From NCBI RefSeq assembly GCF_003428645.1, contig NZ_QVQH01000003.1, positions 124,001 to 188,000 on the forward strand: a DNA stretch of 64,000 nt, written 5' to 3'. Of this stretch, positions 41,406 through 44,423 are shown piece by piece. The DNA comes from Geodermatophilus marinus (GTDB lineage: Bacteria; Actinomycetota; Actinomycetes; Mycobacteriales; Geodermatophilaceae). Position 1 is the stretch's first letter. Every line of letters begins with the position of its first letter. The position numbers and the translations under genes are program-made. The notes under the pieces are model-generated. The model saw only the letters and a program-made list of their open reading frames with translations, was not told the DNA's origin and made no database searches.

Positions 41406-42353
41406 TCAGCCCGCCGGGCGGCCGGCGGCCGGCCGGGCGGACCACAGGCGGGGGTGCGCGTCGTGGGTGGCCCGGCAGGTCAGCCGAGCACCTTCGGGCC
41501 CGGGCCGGCTGGCCACCTCGATCACCACGTCCCCGTGCGGGCCGGCGAGCGTGACCACCCAGCGCTCCTCCTCGGCCCCGGCCGGGGTCAGCCGGCGCAC
41601 CTCGCGCGCCGGCAGGTCGTCGACACCGAGCAGGCCCAGCTCCTCGCGCGCCGCCTGCTGCGCCGCCTGCACCGGCGGGGCGGTGCCGGACCGGCCGCGC
41701 AGCCAGGACGGCGCCACCTCGCCGGCGGCGTGCGCGGCCACCAGCGGGGCGCCGTCCCCGGGTACCTGGCCGTAGTAGAAGCCGTGCGGCAGCACGAGCA
41801 CGTTGGCCGCGAACCGGCACCCGCCCAGGTGGCTGCACTCCCACACGTCGTCGGCGGGCATCGCCTGCGCCAGCGGCCTGCCCCGCACCGCGCAGCAGGC
41901 GTCGTGCCCGCCGTGCGCGCACACCAGGTAGGTCGGTCCGTCCGCCGGGCGCCCGGCCGACCCGTCCCAGGGGGCGTCGACGATGTCGGCGTCGTCCTCG
42001 CGCACCGACCACCACAGCCCCTCGCGCCCCGGCCGGCCGTCGGCGTAGGCCCACCGCCGGCCGGTGTCGGCCAGCCGGTCGCCGGGCCGGCGCACCAGCA
42101 GCACCCGGACGCCCTCCTCGCGCGCCCGGTGGGCCAGCCGGGGGGCCACCGCCGGGTCGAACCGGGACTGCGTCAGCGCGTCGACCCCCCACGGGCCCGG
42201 CTGCTCGACCAGCAGCCAGCGCTGGGCGGGGGAGGCCGTGCCCACCCCGGAGTCCCCGCGGGCGAGGGCGCGCACCGAGCACCGGTCCGCGCTCAGCCGG
42301 CCGGCCGGCCGGCCCAGGACCCGGGCCGGCCGGCGGACGTCCGGACCGGTCAC
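41406..42353 (-). CDS. Sucrase/ferredoxin-like protein (thioredoxin-fold [2Fe-2S] type)
   Basis: 315 residues. The C-terminal half carries the signature YLVCAHGGHDACCAVRG and ECSHLGGCRFAANVLVLPHG, giving Cys and His ligands of a thioredoxin-like ferredoxin; GFYYGQV follows. Members of this family (Suc_Fer-like) are poorly characterised. GTG 42353 overlaps the JmjC gene stop by 4 nt, so it is the third gene of the repeat-protein/oxygenase operon. A redox service to the oxygenase is a guess from position only. Confidence 0.85.
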   Translation of the reverse strand: MTGPDVRRPARVLGRPAGRLSADRCSVRALARGDSGVGTASPAQRWLLVEQPGPWGVDALTQSRFDPAVAPRLAHRAREEGVRVLLVRRPGDRLADTGRRWAYADGRPGREGLWWSVREDDADIVDAPWDGSAGRPADGPTYLVCAHGGHDACCAVRGRPLAQAMPADDVWECSHLGGCRFAANVLVLPHGFYYGQVPGDGAPLVAAHAAGEVAPSWLRGRSGTAPPVQAAQQAAREELGLLGVDDLPAREVRRLTPAGAEEERWVVTLAGPHGDVVIEVASRPGPEGARLTCRATHDAHPRLWSARPAAGRPAG

Positions 42354-43624
42354 GCGGTCGCGTCCGGCACGGTCGCGACCGACTCGGTCACCAGCCGCCG
42401 AGCGAGGGTGAGCTGGTCCTCGGCGTCCAGGCCGGGCAGGTCGCCGACCTTGAGCTCGCCGGCCGCCAGCAGCTCGGCCAGCGCCGGCCGGGTGCTCGCC
42501 GGCAGGTCCAGCGACCGCCGCCCGAACAGCAGGGTCACCCGGTCCCCGGTGGCCTCCCGCAGCGCCGTCCGCAGCCGCCGCCGCACCCGCAGCACCGTCC
42601 CCGGGCCCAGGGCCGCCGCGGCCGTCGCCTGCGCCAGCGGGGCCACCGGCTCCGGGCGCACCTGGGCCCAGGTGCGGGCCCGCAGCCGGTCGGCGACCTC
42701 GTCGGGGTCGACCCGCCCCAGCCAGTCGCGCAGCCCGGTGAGCACGGTGGCGAGCTCCTGGCGCACCCCGGCCGGGTCCGACAGGTCCAGGCCCAGCGGC
42801 AGGGACCGGCGCAGCTCCGGGTCGTCGGCGGCCAGGGTGCGCACGAGGTCCAGGGCCGACTCGGCGGCCGCGAACCGGGTCACGGAGTGCACCCCGACGG
42901 TGAGGTGGGCGCTGATCCGGCCGAGCGCCTCGGCCGAGTGCAGGTAGCCGCGGGGCAGGTAGAGGGCGTCCCCCGGCCGCAGCACCGCGTCGACCACCGG
43001 GTCGCGCCGGGCCGCGGCGGCCACGTCGGCCGCCCGGTCGTTCCAGGGCTGGGTGCGCAGCGGGTCGGCGAGCACCGGCTCGTGGATCCGCCAGTGCTTC
43101 TCCCCGGCGACCTGCAGGACGAAGACGTCGTGGACGTCGTAGTGCGGGGAGAAGCCGCGCGAGGACGGTGGCGTCACGTAGGCGTTGACCTGCGTCGGGT
43201 GCCCGAGGTCGGCGGCGAGCTGGTCGGCGAACTCGATCAGCGGCGGCCAGAGGCGGTGCAGCCCCTGGAGGACGACCGTGCTGCCCTCGGCGAACAGGCG
43301 CAGCACCGCATCGCTCGAGACCTGGTCGGCCACCTCGGCGCCCGCGCCGCCGGACGTGGTGAAGCGCTGGGCGTCGACCACCGTGCCGTCCTTGGCGATG
43401 CGCAGGAACGGCGTGCGCAGACCGCGGCGGGACAGCAGCTCGTCGACGGCGGCCAGGTCGAGCAGGTCGGCGAACGACCTGCCGGTCTCCTCGGCGCGGA
43501 CCAGCAGCGGACGGCGGCCCCAGTACTGCGCGGCGAAGACCTCCGGGTCCAGGGCGGTGCACCGACGCAGGGCCGGTCGGAGGGCGCCCTCCGACCGGCC
43601 CTGCGTGGTGGGGTCAGCGGTCAG
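42350..43624 (-). CDS. JmjC/cupin Fe(II)-2-oxoglutarate protein hydroxylase, apparent CTG start
   Basis: 424 residues if translation begins at CTG 43624. The JmjC core has the iron triad: [19 protein letters not shown] (HxD) and [11 protein letters not shown] (distal His), as in bacterial ribosomal oxygenases (YcfD/ROX) that hydroxylate Arg or His side chains. The first ATG/GTG in frame is GTG 43381, but that would delete conserved N-terminal sequence ([17 protein letters not shown] and [18 protein letters not shown]), so a start further up is needed. CTG 43624 overlaps the upstream stop as CTGA, the same 4-nt style used by its neighbours. CTG 43570 is a second choice. A frameshift or sequencing error is less likely but not excluded. 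Confidence 0.82.
43565..43606 (-). terminator. 42-nt perfect palindrome between repeat-protein and JmjC genes
   Basis: The two 21-nt halves are exact reverse complements (outer bases ACGCAGGGCC and GGCCCTGCGT, centre GGGCGCCC). It starts 14 nt after the stop codon of the Asp-Gly-Ala repeat gene and lies inside the first codons of the JmjC frame. On RNA it forms a very stable hairpin, so it may act as a partial terminator that lowers expression of the downstream enzyme relative to the repeat protein. Confidence 0.75.
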
Positions 43625-43962
43625 GCCGAACCGTCCGCACCGCCGTCGGCGCCGCCGTCCGCGCCGCCGTCGGAACCACCACCGGCCGCGCCGCCGTCCG
43701 CGGGGCCGTGCCCGGCCGCGCCGTCAGCCCCGCCGTCAGCCCCGCCGTCCGCACCGCCGTCCGCCCCGCCGTCCGCACCGCCGTCCGCACCGCCGTCCGC
43801 ACCGCCGTCCGCACCGCCGCCGACCGCACCCCCGTCGGCGGGGCCGTGGCCCGCGCCGCCGTCCGCACCGCCGTCCGCACCGCCGTCGGCGCCCCCACCC
43901 GCGGCGCCGCCGTCGGCCGGGCCGTGGCCCGCGGTGGTCATGTCGTCGTCGTCGAGCGCCAT
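43621..43962 (-). CDS. Asp-Gly-Ala repeat protein, possible substrate of the JmjC oxygenase
   Basis: 113 residues. A short head, MALDDDDMTTA, is followed by three modules that each begin GHGPADGGA(A/V)GGG and continue with GAD-GGAD repeats (3, 8 and 4 units), ending GADGSA. It has no Cys, Lys, Arg, Trp or Tyr and is strongly acidic, so it should be extended and perhaps metal-binding. A GGGAG ribosome-binding site precedes the ATG. I know of no function. Coding is supported by the coupled downstream genes and by the head, which is not repeat. The other frames of the same DNA are also open because of the repeat, so this call rests on context. The repeated His in GHGP is a candidate hydroxylation site. 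Confidence 0.65.
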   Translation of the reverse strand: MALDDDDMTTAGHGPADGGAAGGGADGGADGGADGGAGHGPADGGAVGGGADGGADGGADGGADGGADGGADGGADGGADGAAGHGPADGGAAGGGSDGGADGGADGGADGSA

Positions 43963-44423
43963 GCTGCTCCCATCAGGTCGTGGGCCACCGGGTGGTGGCC
44001 CTCCGGTCGCTGCAGTACCTCGCCCATCGTGCTCTCACACTCCCCGGGCGACCAGCGGGGACGGCCCTCCCGCGGTGCGCCGGGTGACGATCCGGTCGCG
44101 GTACCGCAGCCCGGTCCGGTGCCGGGCCCCGGGGAACCGCAGGAGGAGCCGGACCGACGATCGAGGCAGGGGGATGGCATGACCGGGAGTCGTGCGCCTC
44201 CTGGGCGGGCCCGGGGCTCGGGCTCCCCGTCGCGGCCGCGGCCCTCGGCGGCGCGCTCCGCGCCAGGATGTGGCCCGGCGAGCGGGAGCGCGAGGCCGAC
44301 CGGGTGGGCGTGGTCACGGACCGCTGACACCCGCCCGTCGGGCGCCGGGCCCGCCCGTCGCCCGCTATCGTCCCTGCAGGTCGAACACGCGTTCGACCCG
44401 CAGGGACGCGGCGGGAGGTCGGG
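43963..44423. other. Divergent intergenic region, repeat-protein operon / dinB
   Basis: 461 bases. The right end holds the dinB SOS promoter (TATCGT at 44366-44371 and the LexA box). An open frame at about 44089-44327 ends in a hydrophobic-basic stretch (LGLPVAAAALGGALRARMW) but has no start codon or ribosome-binding site. The left part is presumably the leader of the repeat-protein operon; no clear promoter was found. Confidence 0.55.
44381..44396. promoter_or_regulatory. LexA (SOS) box of dinB
   Basis: TCGAACACGCGTTCGA is a near-perfect palindrome fitting TCGAAC-N4-GTTCGA, 9 nt below a TATCGT -10 box and 28 nt before the dinB start codon. The layout is the same as at the dnaE2 operon. Confidence 0.93.

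Follow-up and report, generated by a model that had tools for sequence, protein, structure and literature searches.

What does a JmjC oxygenase act on when its gene stands between those of an aspartate-rich repeat peptide and a ferredoxin-like protein? JmjC ribosomal oxygenases occur in organisms as far apart as humans and Escherichia coli (PMC4543633), and the question is raised for one of their relatives by a minus-strand trio of genes in the soil actinobacterium Geodermatophilus marinus. The trio encodes, in this order, an Asp/Gly/Ala repeat peptide, a JmjC oxygenase and a Suc_Fer-like protein, and it lies in the 64,000-nucleotide (nt) stretch analysed here (the window; positions 124,001 to 188,000 of contig NZ_QVQH01000003.1, assembly GCF_003428645.1). 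An earlier note, made from the letters of the window alone, had proposed a new peptide-modification system at this place, and the three genes are indeed there, as open reading frames (ORFs) and, for the latter two, as Pfam matches (Table 1). We consider it probable (roughly 0.62) that they form a cassette resembling the pathways of ribosomally synthesized and post-translationally modified peptides (RiPPs), in which the JmjC enzyme carries out a leader-guided hydroxylation of the Asp repeats.

The cassette itself is real and widespread in actinobacteria. The JmjC protein was found in 108 of the 112 genomes of the window's family, Geodermatophilaceae. Among 80 named loci of the genome collection, whose hosts include Geodermatophilus, Blastococcus, Modestobacter, Actinoplanes, Leifsonia, Agromyces and Subtercola, a repeat ORF stood directly 5′ of the JmjC gene in 77 (four of these ORFs being cut by the contig end), and the remaining three loci had 105, 1 and 26 nt of contig upstream. 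In a survey of the phylum, the JmjC query matched 58 of 396 genomes and a peptide profile (A2) matched 13, with 12 of the peptides directly 5′ of the 12 best JmjC matches. The A2 match in genome G347 (E value of 5.1 × 10−4) was on another contig than the JmjC gene and was taken as chance. The weaker JmjC matches that were fetched (L124 to L140) were accompanied by no A2 repeat and had other Asp-rich ORFs 5′ of them, for example of the DGTDGD or DADGTD type. Another class comprised 66 genomes, 38 of them with the JmjC gene, and the 30 loci fetched from it were alike, with peptides such as MRVEGLTDEDIETV...DGDATD...ADADGTDA.

To count the linkage, we used the 130 of 138 distinct loci that had at least 160 nt upstream and set the 8 with less aside. 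A short Asp-rich ORF was present beside the JmjC gene in 129 of the 130, whereas just 2 passed among 125 further long ORFs taken from the window and the loci, and the adjacency is therefore not due to chance; these figures apply to loci picked by JmjC similarity, many of them closely related, and to a criterion that was fixed after examples were known (40 to 200 amino acids, at least 12 % Asp, at most 6 % Lys plus Arg, and an end between 300 nt before and 70 nt after the estimated JmjC start). With an acidic head also required, the linkage was 122 of 130 loci versus 1 of 125 control ORFs. The sole locus without the short ORF, L160, has masked bases inside the peptide, and L123 satisfies the composition criterion though its ORF is not repetitive. 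A repeat ORF that is not conserved beside the JmjC gene in relatives, which the earlier note had named as the outcome that would speak against its proposal, was thus not what we found. A conserved precursor-like gene beside a tailoring enzyme is a hallmark of RiPP loci, and the peptide is accordingly placed as a putative precursor.

Among the more distantly related JmjC genes of the phylum, 11 (L189 to L197, L199 and L200) had neither an Asp-rich ORF nor a Suc_Fer gene nearby, and L198, slightly closer than those 11, had both. In genome G250, a JmjC gene of this enzyme family (L123/L201) has an irregular acidic ORF 5′ and no Suc_Fer gene, possibly a decayed or altered cassette. A scan with patterns of the window JmjC protein, which kept 80 of 84 confirmed loci and has little bearing on other phyla, gave no matches outside actinobacteria. 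In searches with one query, partial JmjC matches occurred in 125 plasmid records, none covering 80 % of the query, and phages gave none.

The window peptide, which begins with MALDDDDMTTAGHGPADGGA..., is composed as the earlier note had described, with three GHGPADGGA modules and GADGGAD repeats, as well as DGGA runs, and without Cys, Lys or Arg. A ribosome-site-like stretch, GGGAG, precedes its ATG at positions 43967 to 43971. Cys is absent from all 129 peptides of the counted loci, and Asp makes up 22 % of their residues. By repeat type, 89 belong to a GGAD type and 39 to a DxD type, in which L132 and L140, with repeats unlike the others, are counted; the remaining peptide, L123, is irregular. 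The Asp-Gly-Ala repeat that had been proposed as the partner of the enzyme does stand beside it, but at least one other repeat type accompanies the same enzyme family. An acidic head of the pattern [DE][DE][DE][IM]x[TSV] occurs near the N terminus of 108 of the 129 peptides (87 in a stricter form with a leading L, I, V or F, and 116 in a looser form), and similar amino-acid heads come from different families and classes. A conserved head in front of a separate, more variable core, here of two repeat types, is the architecture of RiPP precursors. The ORF 5′ of the JmjC gene in L132 carries a third kind of repeat, TDQGVxGGTYGPRDA, after a similar acidic head, and the peptide of L071 (Geodermatophilus ruber) has the insert LIDKVRDKVRDVIGGDK within its DGGA repeats and is missing the usual DGSA end.

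No Pfam or NCBIfam model was matched at its cut-off by the window peptide or by four in-frame relatives (the row for L099 was out of frame in these searches), and none of the three window proteins reached the cut-off of an NCBIfam model. In protein databases, relatives of such peptides were listed under Phytohabitans, Micromonospora, Salinispora, Rhodococcus, Leifsonia and Mycobacterium, and the source of the Leifsonia poae sequence calls it BatC; a search of about 5.8 billion proteins with one DxD-type peptide brought up just one relative. The cassette may have escaped notice because low-complexity ORFs are poorly annotated, as the missing model matches and this single relative illustrate.

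Judged by sequence, repeat type and enzyme lineage go together. The GGAD-type and DxD-type cassettes separated into two groups when 83 JmjC proteins were placed in a tree, so that the repeat type tracks the enzyme; the six labels require 6 changes, the minimum possible being 5, in a tree built by a quick method from selected rows (12 from the window's family) and from ORFs with estimated starts, with long branches present. The outliers were L123, within the GGAD group, and L191, a gene without partners, within the DxD group on a long branch.

The second gene encodes a complete JmjC Fe(II)/2-oxoglutarate oxygenase, as the earlier note had held. Its product matches JmjC_2 (PF08007) with an E value of 7.6 × 10−28, and the HxD...H triad (H161, D163 and H229) is intact and invariant in 46 aligned sequences. 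Over its whole length, the predicted fold is that of a ribosomal oxygenase such as NO66 or MINA53, including the C-terminal winged helix, and the nearest solved structures are His hydroxylases. The C-terminal domain bears a weak resemblance to RiPP leader-binding domains (RiPP recognition elements, RREs). Predicted fold, triad and winged helix are thus common to the cassette enzyme and to NO66, MINA53 and RoxA/YcfD of PF08007. Unlike these, the cassette oxygenase has genes for an Asp-rich repeat peptide and a Suc_Fer protein next to its own, and its presumed substrate is the peptide and not a ribosomal protein; the genomic context, at least, points elsewhere than to the ribosome.

In the mechanism that we favor, the first gene would give rise to an abundant Asp-rich repeat peptide, the short acidic head of which (DDDDMTT here) would bind to the winged-helix domain, basic and RRE-like, of the oxygenase. 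The enzyme would then hydroxylate the recurring Asp residues of the flexible repeat region, using Fe(II), O2 and 2-oxoglutarate, and the Suc_Fer-like protein would supply electrons or would perform or enable a later redox step. Stop-start coupling together with a hairpin may hold enzyme output below that of the peptide. So arranged, the cassette would work like a RiPP pathway, membership in which hinges on the predicted modification. Our guess at its purpose is an intracellular polyanionic peptide that binds metal or is protective, and not an exported antibiotic, since no protease or transporter recurs within about 4 kb of the cassette in the 12 loci compared. Doubtful, and put forward only tentatively, is the broader picture of a phylum-wide class of multiply hydroxylated, disordered, Asp-rich intracellular peptide polymers, metal-binding or protective and not exported, each made by an NO66-like oxygenase with its own leader-binding domain and a ferredoxin-like redox partner, with β-hydroxy-Asp as the working group.

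The earlier note had left open whether His or Asp of the repeat would be the target. Asp appears more likely, because 35 of the 129 peptides have no His (27 of the 39 DxD-type and 8 of the 89 GGAD-type peptides), while the 128 GGAD- and DxD-type peptides carry at least 9 Asp each. A peptide substrate that is hydroxylated at the His before DGGADG, in the manner of the histidyl hydroxylases NO66 and MINA53, would be in keeping with the closest solved structures and with the 58 of 62 GxADGG...DGGADG units outside Geodermatophilaceae in which His precedes DGGADG; the His-free peptides, and the 490 DGGADG units that follow Gly-Ala across all peptides versus the 65 that follow Gly-His, render it unlikely. 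We also regard it as improbable that the peptide is an unmodified partner, such as an acidic disordered Fe(II) carrier, an inhibitor or a tether, of an enzyme whose real substrate lies elsewhere, for example in the ribosome. Its acidic low-complexity composition, the complete ribosomal-oxygenase fold with the C-terminal winged helix and the lack of recurrent processing genes nearby would all suit such a partner, but near-identical repeated units, and a repeat type that shifts with the JmjC lineage while the acidic head stays, are more substrate- or leader-like than carrier-like.

Two further explanations dispense with a role of the peptide altogether. The oxygenase might be a plain actinobacterial ribosomal oxygenase and the adjoining ORF incidental, which is very hard to reconcile with the linkage counts, with the more distant JmjC genes of the phylum that have no such ORF and with a JmjC query that matched only the minority of phylum genomes given above; we rate it as highly improbable. 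Finally, the repeat ORF might be untranslated and the conserved element might be G+C-rich repeat DNA or RNA, such as a leader or an attenuator. The G+C-rich tandem repeats, the hairpin close by and the lack of a Pfam or NCBIfam match for the peptide would fit, but we give this explanation almost no credence in view of the similar amino-acid heads across families and classes, the ribosome-site-like stretches seen by eye before the ATG and the many synonymous DNA versions of the repeat (third-position variation gives 42 distinct sequences among 70 DGGADG units of identical protein sequence, which were picked by that sequence, so that the synonymous diversity alone is informative). Leader-guided hydroxylation of Asp remains the explanation that we prefer.

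The junctions within the trio bear on how its genes may be expressed. Both are 4-nt overlaps, CTGA between the peptide and JmjC genes and GTGA between the JmjC and Suc_Fer genes. The overlap of all three genes that had been claimed earlier holds as such at the Suc_Fer junction, while that of the peptide and JmjC genes holds only with a CTG start of the latter. In the window, the JmjC frame contains no ATG, GTG or TTG between the upstream stop and codon 82, deep within the protein. The peptide ends in CTGA in 68 same-family loci, with CTG in the estimated JmjC frame in 67; 42 of the 68 have no in-frame ATG, GTG or TTG upstream or before a conserved PAL motif, in 17 more the only upstream one is at least 91 codons off, and 9 fit less cleanly. 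The most economical interpretation for the same-family loci, most of which lack these codons near the junction, is that a CTG start is conserved; in other families, ATG, GTG or TTG occurs at or near the equivalent junction in many loci.

The strong hairpin of the earlier note exists and is conserved with compensatory changes; however, it begins at about nucleotide 20 of the JmjC gene, and with a CTG start it lies inside the first JmjC codons and not between the first two genes. In an alignment (A4) of 43 sequences, the window and a selection of 42 same-family loci, 94.1 % of the cells were paired, compared with 86.4 % in shuffles and 36 to 50 % in slid versions, and 42 cells showed double changes versus 9.5 in shuffles. 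The pairs changed on both sides numbered 6 versus 4.7, which is not above the control (98 of 500 shuffles were as high). Eight of 38 listed loci were left out of A4 before counting (L045, L051, L055, L073, L090, L093, L094 and L098), and all of these except L073 have a stem of at least 14 bp. Nearly all same-family loci (Table 1) have a stem no shorter than 11 bp at most 100 nt from the CTG; such stems turned up in 6 of 340 windows taken within the JmjC gene and in 3 of 68 shuffled sequences. Similar hairpins were present in Microbacteriaceae. These data support a conserved RNA structure at the start of the JmjC gene, which may act on its expression.

In two Subtercola loci, L107 and L110, the hairpin stands just after the peptide stop, in the intergenic stretch and far before the estimated JmjC starts at about 100 and 162 nt past that stop, and it therefore need not be a by-product of coding. 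A programmed frameshift that would fuse the peptide with the oxygenase was rejected, as no slippery heptamer was seen by eye. A search of Rfam returned two matches only, far below the gathering scores, and inspection by eye 5′ of the peptide gene revealed no known promoter or iron-regulator box. At about 43963 to 44045, and in the upstream regions of the 68 same-family loci, there is a conserved GAGGTA-containing stretch with a G+C-rich palindrome, possibly a promoter or leader element.

The third protein matches the Suc_Fer-like family (PF06999; E value of 1.1 × 10−15, 58.6 bits versus a cut-off of 34.9), which we take to have a thioredoxin fold. A relative lies 3′ of the JmjC gene in 127 of the 138 distinct loci; of the 11 others, 2 are short of sequence and 9 have at least 1485 nt available. 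Cys/His motifs such as CxxGxxDxCC and SHxGG(D/C)RFA recur in these relatives, and a sequence search for a solved relative found none. In the window protein, SHLGGC (positions 41817 to 41837) replaces the SHxGGD of most relatives, and a cluster ligand may have changed with it. Beyond the trio, no gene was recurrent across families within about 4 kb in the 12 loci compared, and no sign of a dedicated protease or exporter was seen there; apart from the trio and the ORFs over it, neighborhood clusters shared by at least 3 of the 12 loci reflected genus- or family-specific synteny only.

Table 1. Features of the candidate peptide-modification cassette in the window (window coordinates)
Feature	Position	Strand	Basis
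Asp/Gly/Ala repeat peptide (putative precursor), 113 aa + stop	43621..43962	-	ORF; Asp-rich ORF at equivalent place in 129/130 testable loci
Acidic head MALDDDDMTT (putative leader)	43933..43962	-	Head pattern near N terminus, 108/129 peptides
Repeat region (putative core), 3 GHGPADGGA modules + DGGA runs	43624..43932	-	Translation, repeat analysis
JmjC (PF08007) Fe(II)/2-oxoglutarate oxygenase, 424 aa + stop, probable start CTG 43622-43624	42350..43624	-	ORF, Pfam, structure alignment
HxD metal-binding motif, H161 + D163	43136..43144	-	Unchanged across 46 aligned sequences; aligns with HYD in NO66
Third metal ligand, H229	42938..42940	-	Unchanged across 46 aligned sequences; aligns with a His in NO66
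C-terminal winged-helix domain, RRE-like	42353..42652	-	
RNA hairpin, first codons of JmjC gene	43566..43605	-	Covariation in 43 sequences; stem of at least 11 bp in 64/68 same-family loci
Suc_Fer-like (PF06999) ferredoxin-like protein, 315 aa + stop, start GTG over JmjC stop	41406..42353	-	ORF, Pfam; relative 3′ of JmjC in 127/138 loci

Has such a system been described before? The earlier note knew of none, and our literature search agrees: no title or abstract described the cassette and the repeat motifs, searched as words, led to no paper, in a search that covered subscription literature thinly, so that a description elsewhere is possible. Several relatives in function or family can be named. 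PbsQ of the biphenomycin-like pbs cluster, with BpmG as a predicted counterpart, is a JmjC/cupin-like oxygenase that acts on a ribosomal precursor and in this resembles the cassette enzyme; it differs in that it hydroxylates an ornithine produced by a multinuclear nonheme iron-dependent oxidase (MNIO) together with an arginase, and further enzymes are encoded in its cluster (PMC12257519). In the cassette, by comparison, Suc_Fer is, apart from the peptide gene, the sole recurrent neighbor of the JmjC gene, and repeated Asp units make up the putative core. The closest bacterial homologues, PF08007 proteins with an RRE-like domain, are mentioned in one sentence of another paper as occurring in RiPP-like contexts (PMC12710340); they share the Pfam family with the cassette oxygenase, whose own C-terminal domain is weakly RRE-like, and might include members of this cassette. 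In the section in question, neither a precursor nor a repeat, a ferredoxin or a chemistry is given for them. Corallotide, a graspetide with five repeated motifs, offers a long repeat precursor modified by an Fe(II)/2-oxoglutarate oxygenase, as we propose here, but in that case a Lys is hydroxylated after cyclization by a graspetide synthetase, and oxygenase, residue and organisms are all different (PMC13097080).

The cassette thus looks like a so far unnamed system for the chemical modification of Asp-rich peptides. It ties a close structural relative of the ribosomal oxygenases to a head-bearing repeat peptide and so provides this enzyme with a defined candidate substrate. If many of the Asp residues are hydroxylated, the peptides would constitute a large unnamed family of modified peptides. 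And should the products prove to be intracellular hydroxylated polymers, this would suggest that the eukaryotic ribosomal oxygenases share their substrate-binding module with enzymes of peptide maturation.
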